In this document: in pieces, positions 20,433 through 42,943 of the stretch
How the letters are laid out: each line of letters opens with the position of its first letter
How positions within the stretch are numbered: position 1 is the stretch's first letter
Assembly: GCA_003669605.1 (NCBI GenBank)
Contig: QWOP01000053.1
Span: 1-64,000 of the forward strand
DNA: 64,000 nucleotides
Direction: 5' to 3'
Origin: Planctomycetota bacterium
Lineage (GTDB): Bacteria > Planctomycetota > Planctomycetia > Pirellulales > UBA1268
The notes under the pieces: generated by a model
Databases searched by the model: none
The model's input: the letters and a program-made list of their open reading frames with translations, nothing else
Told to the model about the DNA's origin: nothing
Position numbers and translations under genes: made by a program

Positions 20433-22079
20433 TCAGCTGCAGGCCGATTCCAGTTCGGCACTCACCAATCCGCTCGCCGGGCTCGAATTCCGGAAGTGGA
20501 GGGTGTGGCCATCCTCGTCGCCGGCTGCACCTGCAGCGATCGGCACAGACAATCGGGATGGGGCCGAGCGGGAAATCGGCAGCAGCCCCATCTTTTCAAG
20601 TTGGCCGTCGGCGACGAATCCCGCCAGATGGTGCTGAAACCCAGGCTGGCGGAGTTTCTCCACCGCCTTGGCCTCGATCTGTCGGACACGCTCGCGGGTG
20701 ACGCTGAAGATCGACCCCACCTCCTCGAGCGTGTAGGCGTATCCATCGGTGAGCCCGAAGCGGAGGCGGATGATCTCCCGCTCCCGGTAGGAGAGGCCGT
20801 CGAGCACCCTGCCGATCGAATCTTTGAGAGATTGCTGGTTGACGTTCCGGAGCGGATCCACCTCGCGGTGGTCCTTGAGAAAGTCACCGTATCCCAGTTC
20901 CTCCCCCTCGCCCACCGGCTGGTCGAGCGAGAGCGGCTGCCGCGACATCCGCCACACGCAGGTGGCCTCGTCGACGGTCATCCCAGCCTTTTCCGCTAAC
21001 TCAGCCACCGTGGCTTCCCGGCCGTGCTGCTGGCGGAAGTCGCGGGCGACGTTTCGCAGTTTGGTCATGGTGTCGATCATGTGCACCGGCACACGGATCG
21101 TCCGGCTCTGGTCGGCAATCGCCCGGGTGATCGCCTGACGGATCCACCACGTCGCGTACGTGGAGAACTTGAAGCCCCGGGCGTGCTCGAACTTATCCAC
21201 AGCCCGCATCAGCCCGGAATTTCCTTCCTGGATCAGGTCCAGGAACGTCAATCCCCGGTTTCGGTACCGCTTGGCAATCGAGACCACCAGGCGGAGATTG
21301 CCGGCGGCAAGATCCCGCTTGGCGGCATCGTACTTCCCCTGCATCTCGTCGAGCCTGCCGAGCCGCTTCTTCAGCGTACAGCGGCTTTCCCGGACGGAGA
21401 GGAGGATTCCGCGGCAGCGGCGCTTGAGTGCCTCACGCTCTTTGGGGTCGCGTCCCAACGGTCCTGCCATCTCCTTGGTGAGGTCGTCGAGCTGGCTGCC
21501 TGCGGCCCGCAACTCGCGGACCAGCGGCATCAATTTCTGGATCCGGAGATTCATCTCCTCCACCAAACGCACCGCCTTGTTGCGCTGCCTGACCAGACGC
21601 CGCCAGGCGGTGCGGCGGACCTCCATCGGCAGGCTCTTGGACATGGCAGTCCGGAAGAGCTCTTTCTTCTCTTCCTGAATGCGGTGCAGCGTCACCAGAT
21701 TCGGCCCCAGCCGACGGAGGGCGAGCTTCTTTTCGCGGGTGTTGGTGACCGAGACCTCGATGGTCCGATCGAGCCGGACCTTTCCGGCCCGGATCTTCTC
21801 CAGCAATTCGATCGCTCCCGCCAGCACCAGATCATTGGCCAGGAGCGTGTCGCGAAACTTCCGGCGCCAGCACTCGATCCGCCGTGCCGACGAGACCTCG
21901 GTCTCCCGGGTGAGCAGCGGGATTCCCCCCATCTGCAGCAAGTAGAGGCGGACCGGGTCATCGATGGCACCGATTTTGCGGATCGCACCGGCCTTGACGG
22001 ATGGTTTGGCAACAGCCTTGACCGCTGGCTTGACGGCACGGAGCAGGGCGGGGGAGACAACCTCGGTGGAGCGGCGCAT
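20433..22079 (-). CDS. RNA polymerase sigma factor, sigma-70 family (RpoD/SigA type)
   Basis: A 548-aa primary-type sigma factor. Region 1.2 is seen at [23 protein letters not shown]; the long central part (about 60-250) is a helical non-conserved insert; regions 2.1-2.4 follow as [41 protein letters not shown] and [19 protein letters not shown] (about 270-325); region 3 is next, and region 4.2 contains the helix-turn-helix [23 protein letters not shown]. About 60 residues extend beyond the usual C-terminus. Start ATG 22079 has AAGGA about seven bases upstream. It could be the housekeeping sigma or a close group-2 paralogue. Confidence 0.92.
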
Positions 22080-30000: not shown

Positions 30001-30052
30001 TGCCACGGGGCCGTTCCGGGAATAATTCCCGGGGCGGCCCTGTGGCATTTTT
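30001..30052 (+). terminator. Strong intrinsic terminator
   Basis: A long two-tier stem: outer arms TGCCACGGGGCCG (30001-30013) and CGGCCCTGTGGCA (30035-30047, one mismatch), inner arms CCGGGAA/TTCCCGG (30016-30022, 30026-30032) and a T5 tail (30048-30052). It closes the 29302 gene; its right end touches the stop of the convergent pspF. Confidence 0.88.
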
Positions 30053-31065
30053 CATGTCTCAAGCACGCCGGCATGCTTCCGGTAGAGCCCGCGGAACTGG
30101 TGGTAGGTGAGGCCGAGCCGAGCGGCCGCCTTCCGTTGGTGGTGGCGGGTGGCACGGAGCGCCTCGCGGAGCCATTCCACCTCCAGGGCAGCGACCGCAT
30201 CCGGGAGTGATGACTGCCGGGAAACGTGGGGAATCGTGGCTGGCGGAGGACTCAAGACCGCATCGACGGCGCCAGGCATCCCCGCCGCACCTGCCCCCGG
30301 TCGACAGAAAGGATCGAAGTCGATGTCGTCATCGTCCACCGTCCCACCGTCGGCCCTGTGCACCGCCCGCTCAACGACATTCTTCAGTTCGCGGATGTTC
30401 CCCGGCCAGGGATGGGCTTCGAGTGCTGCGCGGGCCGCAGCCGTGAACTCTGCCCCCCGGTCGAACCCGAGTTCGCGGGCCATGCGGCCGGCGAAATGGC
30501 CTGCCAGAACAGCGATATCCTCGCCACGCTCGCGCAACGGGGGCAGATGAAGAACTTCAAACGAGAGTCGGTCGAGGAGGTCCTCCTTAAAACGGCCACT
30601 GCGGGCCATGGCCCGCAGATCGGCGTTGGTGGCGGCCACGATGCGGACGTCGACCCGAGTGGGCCGTGAACTCCCCACCCGTTCAAACGAGCCGTACTCC
30701 ACGACACGGAGGAGTTTTTCCTGCACTTCCAGTGGCACGAGCCCAATCTCATCCAGAAGCAGCGTGCCGCCGTCGGCGGACTCAAACCTGCCCGCTCGCT
30801 CACTCGTGGCCCCGGTGAACGCCCCCGCCTCGTGACCAAAAAGCTCCGACTCAACCAGCGTCGGCGACAGGGCCCCGCAGTGGAGAGTCACAAGCGGCCC
30901 AGCCCAGCGGCGCGAGAGGTAGTGGAGCTTGGCAGCCGCCAGCTCCTTGCCAGTCCCCCGCTCGCCAATCAGGAGCACCGGCCGATCGACCGCTGCCGCC
31001 CGCGAGAGTCGCTCTGTGAACGCCAGAAAGGCGTCCGATCGGCCGATCGCCTCCTCAATACGCAT
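30052..31065 (-). CDS. pspF: Sigma-54 activator, PspF type
   Basis: A 337-aa bacterial enhancer-binding protein with no N-terminal receiver domain, as in PspF. Visible features: AAA+ Walker A GERGTGKE (34-41), the sigma-54 contact loop GAFTGA (81-86), Walker [11 protein letters not shown] (99-108), the arginine-finger region [22 protein letters not shown], and a C-terminal Fis-type helix-turn-helix ([15 protein letters not shown]). The divergent pspA and two sigma-54 promoter matches in front of it make the target obvious. In the classical system PspA binds and inhibits PspF. The chosen ATG (31065) begins [13 protein letters not shown]; a longer in-frame start exists at 31128. Confidence 0.92.
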
Positions 31066-31131
31066 AACCCTACTCCGAGATGATTCACAGGCAGGCTTGA
31101 ATCGCCAAACAAGAGTGTATTTCGCCACAGA

Positions 31132-31146
31132 TGGCTTTTAAAGCCA
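31132..31146. promoter_or_regulatory. Palindrome TGGCTTTTAAAGCCA, possible activator site
   Basis: A perfect 7+7 palindrome in the pspF-pspA divergent gap, about 53-67 bases upstream of the first sigma-54 promoter match, the usual kind of distance for an enhancer site. A related TGGC-N7-GCCA element occurs at 22185. Confidence 0.45.
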
Positions 31147-31197
31147 CTCGAGGTGCCGTGGCCGAGCCGTTTTAAATACTGCAAATCCATGCTGCCA

Positions 31198-31213
31198 AGG
31201 CACTTCCGTTGCG
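31198..31213 (+). promoter_or_regulatory. Sigma-54 promoter match 1, upstream of pspA
   Basis: AGGCAC-N5-TTGCG: the -24 GG (31199-31200) and -12 GC (31211-31212) are separated by exactly ten bases, the invariant spacing of sigma-54 promoters. It lies about 85 bases before the pspA ATG. Confidence 0.68.
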
Positions 31214-31223
31214 CAGCGACATC

Positions 31224-31239
31224 CGGCACTGGGTTTGCT
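31224..31239 (+). promoter_or_regulatory. Sigma-54 promoter match 2, upstream of pspA
   Basis: CGGCAC-N5-TTGCT with GG at 31225-31226 and GC at 31237-31238, again GG-N10-GC. It is 26 bases downstream of match 1 and equally close to consensus (TGGCAC-N5-TTGCW); which one is used cannot be told from sequence. Confidence 0.62.
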
Positions 31240-31296
31240 TCTTATCCAGACAAGCCCCAGCCTCGCCACAACTCCATCCCCCTTCAGGAGCTTCCC

Positions 31297-31968
31297 ATGG
31301 GCGTCTTCACGCGACTCAAGGACATCATCACCTCCAACCTCAACGCCATGCTCGACGCCGCCGAGGACCCCGACAAGCTGATCCGGCTGATGATCCAGGA
31401 GATGGAAGACACGCTCGTCGAGGTGAAGGCCAACTGTGCCGGTGCCATCGCCGCCCGGAAGCGGGCCGAGCGGGGGGTGGCCTCCGCCGAAGCGGCGATC
31501 GGCGTCTGGGAGGAGCGGGCGCGGTTGGCGATCGAGAAGGGGCGCGAGGATCTGGCCCGCGAAGCGATCCGTGAACGCCGGCGACTCGAGGAACTCTGCA
31601 AGGCCCACGCCCAGGAAGCCAGCGGCTGCAACGAGGTGGTGGCCCGTTACAAGGAAGACATCGACGCGGTGGAAGCGAAGCTCACCGACGCCCGGCAGCG
31701 GCATCGACTGCTTGTCGAGCGTCACCGGCGGGCCCGCAACCACGAACGGACCCGCGGGGTCATCGAGCGCGTCACCCGGTACGATGCGGTGACGAAGTTC
31801 GACCAACTCGAGCAACGGATCGAGCGGATGGAGGCGGCCTCGGAGATCAGTCCCGATCTCCAGAAGCCGTCGCTCGAGGAGGCGTTTGCGGTCCTCAAGG
31901 AATCAGACGCGATCGAGGAGGAACTGGAGCGGCTCCGCAGCCAGCCGCGGCGGCCGACCGCCCCCTGA
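31297..31968 (+). CDS. pspA: Phage shock protein A (PspA/IM30 family)
   Basis: A 223-aa, almost wholly helical coiled-coil protein of the PspA/Vipp1/ESCRT-III family that binds stressed inner membranes. It opens with the amphipathic MGVFTRLKDIITSNLNAMLD, then EDPDKLIRLMIQEMEDTLVEVK, the family's most conserved stretch. AGGAG at 31286-31290, six bases before ATG, fixes the start. It is divergent from pspF and 82 bases ahead of the PspC-kinase fusion, so the two probably share the sigma-54-dependent transcript. Confidence 0.95.
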   Translation: MGVFTRLKDIITSNLNAMLDAAEDPDKLIRLMIQEMEDTLVEVKANCAGAIAARKRAERGVASAEAAIGVWEERARLAIEKGREDLAREAIRERRRLEELCKAHAQEASGCNEVVARYKEDIDAVEAKLTDARQRHRLLVERHRRARNHERTRGVIERVTRYDAVTKFDQLEQRIERMEAASEISPDLQKPSLEEAFAVLKESDAIEEELERLRSQPRRPTAP

Positions 31969-32050: not shown

Positions 32051-34204
32051 ATGACCACACTTCTCGGCATGTTGGGCTTGGGCCTTCTCGAAATGCTCGT
32101 CATCCTCTGCGCTGGATTGCTGATGCTGATGACCTTCGGTGGGTTGTTCGCGGCACTGGGCTCGGTGTTCCCCGCGTCGCGCGGCCCCTGCATTCTCGGC
32201 GTCTGCTGGCGGCTCGCCCGCCACCTCGAGGCACCGGTGCGGGCGGTCCGGCTGCTCATCGTGGCGGCCATCGTCCTGACAGGCATTCTTCCGGGAGTCC
32301 TCCTCTACCTCGCTGCTGGCGTCATCCAGTCGTGGTTTGACGGGGCGATCGACGAGTCGTTGCCCGGCTTTGCTGCCACCGACACCGGGCCGATGGTCCT
32401 CGGCGTCTGCCGGCGGCTGGCGCGGCGGCTCGATGTGCGAGTCGGCCCGGTGCGATTGCTCGTTGCCCTGGTGGGGCTGGTGACAGGCGTCTTCCCCGGT
32501 TTGATTCTCTATTTTTTGGCCGCATTCCTCCGCACCGACCACGCCCGACGATCACTCGGTCGCTACTCCCAGATTCTCGACACACTTCGCCACGACCTGC
32601 CAGCGGCTTCTGACCGCAGCGGTGCCTTTCGCGCAGCGTCTACCCGTCCGCGGCGCATCGGCCGTTACCGGATTCTCGGGGAACTCGGGGTCGGAGGGAT
32701 GGGGACTGTCTACCGCGGCCGCGACGACGCCCTCGCCCGTGACGCGGCGGTCAAGGTCATCCGACCGCTGCCGGGCGACGACGCCGACGCCCGCCAACGG
32801 TTCGGCGAGGAGGCCCGCGCTGCTGCCTCGCTCGCCTCCCCCCACATCGTGCAGATCTACGAGTTCGACCCGGTCGGCAGCCCGCCATTTCTGGCGATGG
32901 AACTGGTGCCGGGGGTGAGCGTGCAACGAATGGTGCAGAGGCAGGGGGCGATGCCGGCTGCCACGGTCGTCGACTGCGCGCAGCAGGTGCTCGCAGGGCT
33001 CGCTACGGCGCATGCGGCGGGGATCATTCACCGCGACATCAAGCCGGCGAACATCCTTCTGGCCACCAGCGGCCCCGCTGCCGGCACCTACAAGCTCACC
33101 GATTTCGGCTTGGCCCGCAGCCCCGACCGGCAGCACACGCTCACCGCCTCAGGTTCGCTCCTCGGCACGCTTTTGTACCTCGCACCAGAGGTGGCGATCG
33201 GCGACGACGCCACTGCCCCAAGTGACCTCTACAGCCTCGGGGCGACGCTCCACGAAATGCTCGCTGGCCGGCCACCGCTGACAGCCGATAGCCCACTCAA
33301 ACTCCTCCGTCGGATCACGACCGAAACCCCGCCGCCGATCTCGCATGCCCGTCCCGATCTGCCAGCCGACCTCGCCGCCTGGCTCGATCGCCTTCTCGCC
33401 CACGATCCCGCCAGTCGTTTTCAGTCGGCGGCACAGGCACTCACCACACTCTCGTCGCTGCCGGTCGCGGCCGATGCCACCACGGGCCTGTCGCCCGAGG
33501 ACGCAGTCGCCGCAGCGGACGACATTCTCGGCCGGCCCCACGCCGTCGATTCGGCCAGCCCCGATCTCATCGGCGAACAGACCGTCACCGACATCGCCCA
33601 TGAGCTGAGCCTCGACGCCCATGATGTGCGGGCCATTCTCCGCACCCACCGGCGGGGCAGGGGAGGCCGGGGACGCAACACCGAAAGCATCGTCGGCATG
33701 TTTGGCGAGGCGCTCGGCCGCAAAGGGGGCCGAGACGGCACAGATCGCTGGAGCAGTCACCGCACAGCAACGCTCTCCCGGTCGATGCCGCGTCGGCAAC
33801 GCAGAGCGCTTGTCGCGGCATATGCTGGCGCGATGTTCGCGGTAGGCTTCGCCCTGATCGGCTGGAAACGCCCCCGTGACGTGGCAACCCTCGTCCCGCC
33901 GCGTCCAGTCGTCGTCATGCCGACCAAAACCGCCCCCCCGCTGCCCCTTTCGGCCGAGGCCGATCCGGACTCAGCCTCGCTCCACAATGCCGTCCCCGGC
34001 CATTCGCTCCCGTTCACCCAGCCCCCCAAGCCCGCGGCCGGCACGGTCTCCCCCCCATCCCTCGCCCCTTCCCCTCGCCAGGTATTCCGCCATCAGGTCG
34101 GGGTTCCGACCGGCATCGGCGTCGTTCTTATCAGTTCGTTCGCACTCGGCTTCGCGCTGGTCTGCCGCGCCCTCCGCCGCCGGCGGGCGCGGAACTGGCC
34201 TTGA
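32051..34204 (+). CDS. Fusion of two PspC domains with a Ser/Thr protein kinase
   Basis: A 717-aa membrane protein. Residues 5-40 form a hydrophobic segment; 45-95 and 115-162 are two PspC-like units, each with LGVCxRLAR, a Val-rich RLL segment and a G-P-G turn (VLTGILPGVLLYL; LVTGVFPGLILYF). Residues 205-470 are a complete Hanks-type kinase: glycine loop GELGVGGMG (210-218), Lys235 in AAVKVI, HRDIKPANILL (catalytic Asp329), DFG (351-353), and YLAPE. After a linker come two more hydrophobic segments (about 587-605 and 688-706). It follows pspA after 82 bases. In other bacteria PspC is a small membrane partner of PspA; here it appears to be the sensor half of a kinase. The function is inferred, but the fusion itself is read directly in one open frame. 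Confidence 0.9.
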   Translation: MTTLLGMLGLGLLEMLVILCAGLLMLMTFGGLFAALGSVFPASRGPCILGVCWRLARHLEAPVRAVRLLIVAAIVLTGILPGVLLYLAAGVIQSWFDGAIDESLPGFAATDTGPMVLGVCRRLARRLDVRVGPVRLLVALVGLVTGVFPGLILYFLAAFLRTDHARRSLGRYSQILDTLRHDLPAASDRSGAFRAASTRPRRIGRYRILGELGVGGMGTVYRGRDDALARDAAVKVIRPLPGDDADARQRFGEEARAAASLASPHIVQIYEFDPVGSPPFLAMELVPGVSVQRMVQRQGAMPAATVVDCAQQVLAGLATAHAAGIIHRDIKPANILLATSGPAAGTYKLTDFGLARSPDRQHTLTASGSLLGTLLYLAPEVAIGDDATAPSDLYSLGATLHEMLAGRPPLTADSPLKLLRRITTETPPPISHARPDLPADLAAWLDRLLAHDPASRFQSAAQALTTLSSLPVAADATTGLSPEDAVAAADDILGRPHAVDSASPDLIGEQTVTDIAHELSLDAHDVRAILRTHRRGRGGRGRNTESIVGMFGEALGRKGGRDGTDRWSSHRTATLSRSMPRRQRRALVAAYAGAMFAVGFALIGWKRPRDVATLVPPRPVVVMPTKTAPPLPLSAEADPDSASLHNAVPGHSLPFTQPPKPAAGTVSPPSLAPSPRQVFRHQVGVPTGIGVVLISSFALGFALVCRALRRRRARNWP

Positions 34205-35352: not shown

Positions 35353-37038
35353 TTACCGCGGCTCGTCGGTGACGCAGCCCTCGCTGGCCGGGGAGACGCA
35401 GCGGATGTACTTGGCGAGGATCCCACGGTCTGCCTTGAGCGGCGGTGCCTTCCAAGCGGCCCGGCGCTTGGCCAACTCGGCTTCCGACACCTCGACGTCG
35501 AGGCGCCCGGAATCACCGTCGATCACGATCCGATCACCATCGACGACCAGCGCGATCGCTCCCCCTTCCTGGGCCTCCGGAACCACATGCCCCACGATGA
35601 ATCCGTGCGAGCCACCAGAGAAGCGACCGTCGGTGATCAGGGCCACATCGTTGCCCATTCCTGCCCCCATCAAAGCCGAGGTGGGGGTGAGCATCTCCGG
35701 CATGCCAGGGCCCCCCTTGGGTCCCTCGTAGCGGATGATGATCACGTCGCCACGCATGATCTTGCCCTGCTCAAGAGCCGCAAGCATCGCTTCTTCACTG
35801 TCAAAGACGCGGGCCGGCCCCTCGAAGCGGGCCCCTTCCTTGCCGGTGATCTTGCCGACGGCCGTCCCGGGGGCGAGGTTCCCCTGGAGGATGACGATGT
35901 GGCCGGTGGCCTTGATCGGCTGCTCGACGGAATGGATCACCTTCTGTCCGGCAGTCAGCCCCTTGTTGGTGGCCAGATTCTCAGCGAGCGTCTTGCCGGT
36001 GCAGGTCAGGCAGTCGCCGTCGAGGAGGCCCTTGTCGAGCATGTAACGCATGAAGCCACTGGTGCCGCCGACGGCATGGAGATCCTCTTGCACATAGCGG
36101 CCGCTCGGCTTCAAGTCGGCGATGTAGGGGATACGGCGGGCCACCGATTGGAAATCGGACGGCGTCAGCGCCACGCCCACAGCACGGGCCATGGCGATGA
36201 GATGGAGCACGGCGTTGGTCGAGCCGCCGAGGGCCATTGTGACCACGATCGCGTTCTCGAAGGCGCGGCGGGTCATGATGTCACGGGGTTTGATGTCGCG
36301 CTCCAGAAGCACGCGGACCGCCGCCCCAGCCCGGCGGCACTCATCTTGCTTGGCCGGATCGACCGCCGGAATGCTGGCACTGTCCGGGAGCGACATCCCC
36401 AGGGCCTCGATGGCGGTAGCCATGGTGTTGGCGGTGTACATCCCACCACAGGCTCCGGCCCCGGGGCAGGCGTTGCGCACGACGCTGCCGCGCCGCGCAT
36501 CGTCGATCCGCCCGGCGACATACTCGCCGTAGCACTGGAAGGCAGAAACAATGTCAAGCGGCGTGCCGTCGGCGAGGTGCCCAGCCCGGATCGTGCCACC
36601 GTAGACCATGATCGCGGGCCGGTTCAGGCGCCCCATGGCGATCAGGCAGCCGGGCATGTTTTTGTCGCAGCCGGGAATCGCCACCAGGGCGTCGTACCAC
36701 TGCGCCTGCATCACCGTCTCGATGGAGTCGGCGATGATGTCGCGCGAGGGGAGCGAGAAACTCATCCCGTCGGTGCCCATCGAGATCCCGTCGCTGACGC
36801 CGATGGTGTTGAAACGCATCCCCACCATCCCGGCCTCCCCGACACCGTCCTTGACGACCTTCGCCAGTTCGCCGAGATGCATGTTGCAGGTGTTGCCGTC
36901 GTACCACATGCTGGCGATGCCCACTTGGGCCTTGTCGAGGTCGGCCGGCTGCAGCCCGGTGCCCAGGAGCATCGCCTGCGAGGCCCCCTGCGAGCGGGGC
37001 TGGGTGATGCGGGAGCTGTAGCGGTTGAGCGCAGCCAT
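35353..37038 (-). CDS. ilvD: Dihydroxy-acid dehydratase
   Basis: Fe-S enzyme of valine, leucine, isoleucine and pantothenate synthesis. The 561-aa protein carries the cluster ligands in GCDKNMPGC (about 122-130) and [18 protein letters not shown] (about 190-207), the substrate-site [14 protein letters not shown], and the C-terminal [18 protein letters not shown] 37038 is the first in frame that gives the family N-terminus. No other ilv genes are beside it. It is divergent from the HAD gene across 239 bases with no clear promoter motif. Confidence 0.97.
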
Positions 37039-42616: not shown

Positions 42617-42943
42617 TCAGCCGTTCTTGTGGCCGAGATATTGCTCGCCGCGAACCACCGACACATCGCTCAGCCAGGCAATGCAGGCGTAGTGATCGAA
42701 GTAGTTGTGGGACACATAGGCCAAAATGGCGACGGCGATGTCGCCTGGCACCACGAATTCCAACTTCCTGGTCTTGGCCTCTCCGGTGACGAGCATCACG
42801 TTGCGGGTACTCCGCGAACCGTGCCCCTCAACGTCCATCATCGTGAAGCCGGTGGCACCGAACTTGATGCCCTCGTCAGCGATCTCTCGCATGATCACCG
42901 TTTCGCCAACCACGGTCACGAGCTTGAGCGGATAGAGTTGCAC
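42617..42943 (-). CDS. sbtB: PII-like protein, probable SbtB
   Basis: A 108-aa PII-fold protein (LYPLKLVTVVGETVIMREIADEG, then GATGFTMMDVEGHGSRSTRN as the T-loop region, and a C-terminal strand). It lacks the classical T-loop Tyr motif of GlnB, so uridylylation by GlnD is not expected. It lies just downstream of the sbtA transporter on the same strand (113-base gap). In cyanobacteria SbtB binds adenyl nucleotides and gates SbtA; the same role is inferred here from pairing. Confidence 0.82.
   Translation of the reverse strand: MQLYPLKLVTVVGETVIMREIADEGIKFGATGFTMMDVEGHGSRSTRNVMLVTGEAKTRKLEFVVPGDIAVAILAYVSHNYFDHYACIAWLSDVSVVRGEQYLGHKNG

Follow-up and report, generated by a model that had tools for sequence, protein, structure and literature searches.

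Origin and layout of the locus

The question raised by this locus is whether two sigma-54-like elements standing between pspF and pspA in a planctomycete represent two promoters, or one promoter and a match of little consequence. The DNA analysed, hereafter the window, is a stretch of 64,000 nucleotides from a Planctomycetota bacterium (Pirellulales; UBA1268), namely positions 1 to 64,000 of the forward strand of contig QWOP01000053.1 (assembly GCA_003669605.1). The genome comprises 3.5 Mb on 92 contigs and is 84% complete. A first-pass annotation had described two exact GGCAC-N5-TTGC elements, each with GG-N10-GC spacing and 26 bases apart, between a PspF-type activator gene and pspA. Both elements, here termed P1 and P2, were recovered in the 231-base intergenic region that separates the two divergent genes.

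30052-31065, minus strand: pspF, sigma-54 enhancer-binding activator (TIGR02974; PF00158 and HTH_8)
31199-31212, plus strand: P1, upstream sigma-54-like match GGCAC-N5-TTGC, GGCACTTCCGTTGC (exact match; 7.2 bits)
31225-31238, plus strand: P2, predicted pspA sigma-54 promoter (-24/-12), GGCACTGGGTTTGC (exact match; 13.7 bits)
31250, plus strand: predicted pspA transcription start, placed 12 bases beyond the GC of P2 by standard sigma-54 geometry
31286-31290, plus strand: likely pspA ribosome-binding site AGGAG, recognised from the sequence and kept among sister species
31297-31968, plus strand: pspA, PspA/IM30 family, 223 aa (PF04012, TIGR02977)
32051-34204, plus strand: fusion of a PspC domain pair with a Ser/Thr protein kinase (PF04024 twice; PF00069, 149 bits)

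The neighbours proved to be what they had been taken for. PspF scored 449.9 bits against the NCBIfam equivalog TIGR02974 and thereby passes the cut-off of 443.55; it consists of an AAA+ domain and a Fis-type HTH, without an N-terminal sensor domain. PspA passes the Pfam cut-off for PspA_IM30 (PF04012, 139 bits, cut-off 33.9) and lies slightly below that of the NCBIfam equivalog TIGR02977 (233.7 bits, cut-off 242.95). The PspC-PspC-kinase gene is probably the second gene of the pspA operon, and homologous PspC-kinase fusions were found 3′ of pspA in sister species and in other loci of the family. A phrase search combining the PspC domain, threonine kinase and phage shock returned no paper; fusions of PspC to histidine kinases are described in PMC9239133.

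The sigma-54 reading also depended on the presence of rpoN, and the window's genome encodes a single sigma-54 gene with an intact 591-aa frame (PF04552, E 6.6e-60) whose product carries the ARRTVTKYR box. The GAFTGA loop and the DNA-binding helix LGLTYHQFR of PspF are identical to those of E. coli PspF, and the tryptophan (W54 column) aligned with E. coli W56 is conserved. W56 is the residue through which PspA holds PspF in E. coli. A W56 loop is named in the abstract of PMC6003685.

Match quality and chance expectation

How far the pair exceeds chance depends on the measure. Exact GGCAC-N5-TTGC matches numbered four in the window and 43 in the 3.5 Mb genome, with P1 and P2 accounting for two in each count. 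The reversed pattern gave 32 matches in the same genome, so that exact matches are enriched only slightly genome-wide. By first-order Markov simulation the expectation for one exact match in a 231-base region was 0.00175, and two matches occurred in 0 of 20,000 simulations; the genome-wide count corresponds to about 0.0014 per 231 bases on one strand. Counting exact matches (0.0014-0.0018) thus makes P1 appear rarer than does match quality, which we judged with a matrix of 65 distinct pspA promoters. These came from the 84 of 90 loci that yielded a site; the six loci without a site at the threshold were excluded and the window was left out. P2 lies in the lower fifth of the real sites on this matrix, and sites of its quality are expected about 0.011 times per 230 bases on one strand. 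P1 scored below 64 of the 65 promoters and is therefore atypical of real pspA promoters, with about 0.11 sites of its quality expected by chance per 230 bases on one strand. It retains both invariant dinucleotides (GG and GC), and its low score is due to an A at -26, where T or C is usual, and a G at -11 in place of A or T.

Second sites of at least P1 quality were present in six of 91 pspA upstream regions (300 bases each, window included); the opposite strand gave 15 hits, and such sites are hence no commoner than background. Apart from the window, only L046 (12 bases) and L051 (5 bases) showed two sites close together among these 91 regions. L046 belongs to the Puniceicoccales (Verrucomicrobiota), and its sigma-54-like sites TGGCACGAGTCTTGGT and TGGCACGCTGTTTGGC upstream of pspA are the nearest analogue of the P1/P2 tandem. 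A phylum-wide trait of tandem pairs was considered and rejected: exact pairs 3-32 bases apart occurred in nine of 392 phylum genomes, compared with six for the reversed pattern, and several of the real pairs are tandem repeats (G210, G340). Phrase searches of titles and abstracts on tandem or paired sigma-54 promoters retrieved no tandem psp promoter.

Two further observations concern sigma-54-like matches elsewhere. In another planctomycete, an AT-rich pair of exact GGCAC-N5-TTGC elements stands in tandem at a distance of 37 bases (L105, around 1500-1550); the frame 3′ of it is presumably transposase-like and not psp. Other strong matches within the window lie at 21966-21979, 36336-36349 and 42853-42868 (13.7-17.8 bits), the last being the highest-scoring of all.

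Enhancer palindromes upstream of pspA

A de novo search of the 130 bases before each of 57 pspA promoters yielded a palindrome, TTGGTnAAaTTnACCAa, with a log-likelihood of 305.7 compared with 96.9 for shuffled sequence (one shuffled set, fewer restarts). The 57 regions remained from 82 after thinning of similar ones and include the window. Copies are mostly 20 bases apart, in keeping with PMC3709507, which reports a pair of PspF sites at E. coli pspA. Three PspF-type palindromes (UAS) precede P2 in the window, with centres measured from the -26 base of P2:

31092-31108, unstranded: weak third PspF-type UAS, CAGGCTTGAATCGCCAA (7.2 bits; 20 bases from the next; centre -125)
31112-31128, unstranded: PspF-type enhancer palindrome, AGAGTGTATTTCGCCAC (11.3 bits, third best in 64 kb; centre -105)
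31131-31147, unstranded: PspF-type enhancer palindrome, ATGGCTTTTAAAGCCAC (13.9 bits, best place in 64 kb; centre -86)

Throughout the 64 kb these are the only places of at least 7 bits that have partners 18-23 bases apart. Nearly the same distances recur in other loci of the family: L012 and L016 have palindromes at -86/-106/-126 and L022 at -85/-105/-125, some copies being weak, and L011, L013, L014 and L015 each show part of the -86/-106/-126 series, with several copies weak. Measured from P1, the distances become -60/-79/-99, unlike the family. Enhancers at about -60/-80/-100 do precede several pspA promoters of Desulfovibrionales (L055, L056, L063, L070, L079), so that the spacing speaks for P2 but is also compatible with P1. 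The predicted palindromes, absent from the first-pass annotation, are independent support for P2, and the stronger support for it.

Conservation of P1 and P2 in relatives

A counterpart of P2 (GGCAC...GC) is present in alignable sequence in all nine pspA loci of the genus, the window and eight sister loci, where it sits 48-59 bases before the start codon. P1 is confined to the window species, with no counterpart in any of the eight sister loci. Neither P1 nor a tandem occurs in seven other loci of the family, which have one good site each, that of L011 being a weaker TGGCAC-N5-GTGT. Five loci (L023-L027) had been dropped as copies of L006, L003, L005, L008 and L010, and L017-L021 as distant PspA paralogues with 22-32% identity. 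Within the first 500 bases of pspA the sister loci are 81-86% identical to the window and thus too distant for a test of selection on P1 within the species. One sister species (G006, L010/L027) retains the sigma-54 site of pspA; no pspF was found in about 3 kb upstream, and 480 bases showed no enhancer palindrome.

Two simple accounts of P1 could be set aside. A recent tandem duplication as the origin of P1 is ruled out, since by eye the flanks of P1 and P2 are alike little beyond the core. An alternative pspA start that only the longer P1 transcript would contain is also ruled out, as the stretch from P1 to the pspA ATG contains no start codon in frame.

Enhancer distance in sister species

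The sister loci differ from the window in a further respect. L003, L004, L005 and L006, all four of the sister loci in which pspF lies next to pspA and the upstream sequence is long enough, carry intact palindromes at -210 to -266, compared with -86 to -125 in the window. The enhancer palindromes of these loci are separated from the pspA promoter by a repeat, GC-rich and about 70 bases long (e.g. G008:C19:1030-1099). It is dispersed: each of 11 sister genomes has 6-31 matches, the window's genome only two. L002, L003 and L006 gave no Rfam match at E 0.1. The distances suggest that the sister pspA promoters probably work through a longer loop. The sister species offer a natural series for how enhancer distance affects sigma-54 activation, potentially the more useful result of this analysis.

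Role of the upstream element

The evidence described above divides the two elements. We consider it likely that P2 is the working pspA promoter and that P1, a weak match born of chance or drift, has little or no role. P1 is absent from sister and family loci and weak, and second sites of its quality are no commoner than background; the likeliest reading is a match due to chance or of recent origin, and presumably an inactive one. Judged from the sequence, P2 is an ordinary PspF/sigma-54 promoter of pspA, and P1 a weak, species-specific neighbour. The first-pass annotation is thus supported as regards a PspF-driven sigma-54 promoter before pspA, namely P2. Its suggestion that the second match marks dual starts or a decoy is not supported, given the lack of P1 in relatives, its weakness and the enhancer spacing that is kept to P2. 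Two consensus matches, it appears, should not be read as two promoters without recourse to relatives.

There is some room, though not much, for P1 as a recent species-specific second sigma-54 site that, 26 bases nearer the PspF enhancer, tunes pspA either as a minor start or as a pre-bound decoy damping basal expression. The former version, in which PspF fires both elements and the transcripts differ by 26 nt, can point to the exact core consensus in both and to enhancer distances from P1 that Desulfovibrionales promoters use, but the missing counterparts in the sister loci, the lack of a tandem in the other family loci, the poor matrix score and a family enhancer phase kept to P2 make it improbable. 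Moreover, some 2.5 helical turns separate P1 from P2, so that P1 would present another face toward the enhancer. Less probable again is that sigma-54 holoenzyme at P1 rarely opens the DNA, covers 31190-31220 and hinders P2 or the enhancer loop. Given typical footprint sizes, two sites 26 bases apart could hardly be fully occupied together, so that polymerase at P1 would crowd P2 and a weak damping effect is conceivable. Sigma-54 holoenzyme does repress some E. coli promoters by occupancy according to PMC4551910, but the repressed promoters reported there are sigma-70 promoters, and P1 is weak and unconserved. A reversal of roles, with P1 as the real promoter and P2 as a match by accident, is scarcely credible: P1 has an exact core, but it is P2 that is found throughout the genus, scores higher and has the enhancer spacing of the family.

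With P2 as the promoter, regulation would follow the Psp system as it is portrayed in PMC9239133 and PMC3709507. Sigma-54 RNA polymerase would bind P2 as a closed complex, and PspF would be held by PspA in the absence of stress and freed by membrane stress. From the palindromes 86-125 bases upstream, PspF would then loop to the closed complex and open it by ATP hydrolysis. Transcription would start at about 31250 and cover pspA and probably the PspC-kinase gene. P1 may have arisen between enhancer and promoter in the lineage of the window.

Comparison with known systems

The locus presents a full PspF/sigma-54 control region, with enhancers, promoter, divergent activator and rpoN, in a planctomycete lineage. 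Its arrangement corresponds to that of E. coli pspF and pspABCDE in the divergent pspF, whose product has GAFTGA and residues of the W56 type, the tandem palindromic enhancers about 20 bases apart and one sigma-54 promoter of the TGGCAC-N5-TTG type 40-80 bases before pspA. Two UASs and control of PspF by PspA are reported for E. coli in PMC3709507. Differences are that the window has three palindromes, one of them weak, that these lie farther out than the approximately -71/-91 of several enterobacteria, that an extra sigma-54-like match stands between enhancer and promoter, and that pspA is followed by the PspC-PspC-kinase fusion, whereas pspB follows it in E. coli.

Repression by sigma-54 occupancy in E. 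coli offers a second comparison. The principle that a sigma-54 site near another promoter could compete for polymerase might apply here as well; however, the cases in PMC4551910 set sigma-54 against sigma-70 and come with binding and expression data, whereas both members of the window pair are sigma-54-like matches in sequence. The sister loci L003-L010 share with the window the P2 orthologue, PspA and, where there is enough sequence, the PspC-kinase fusion. In contrast to the window they have no P1 and carry the dispersed GC-rich repeat upstream of P2, and in the four readable loci their enhancers lie at -210 to -266 compared with -86 to -125 in the window.
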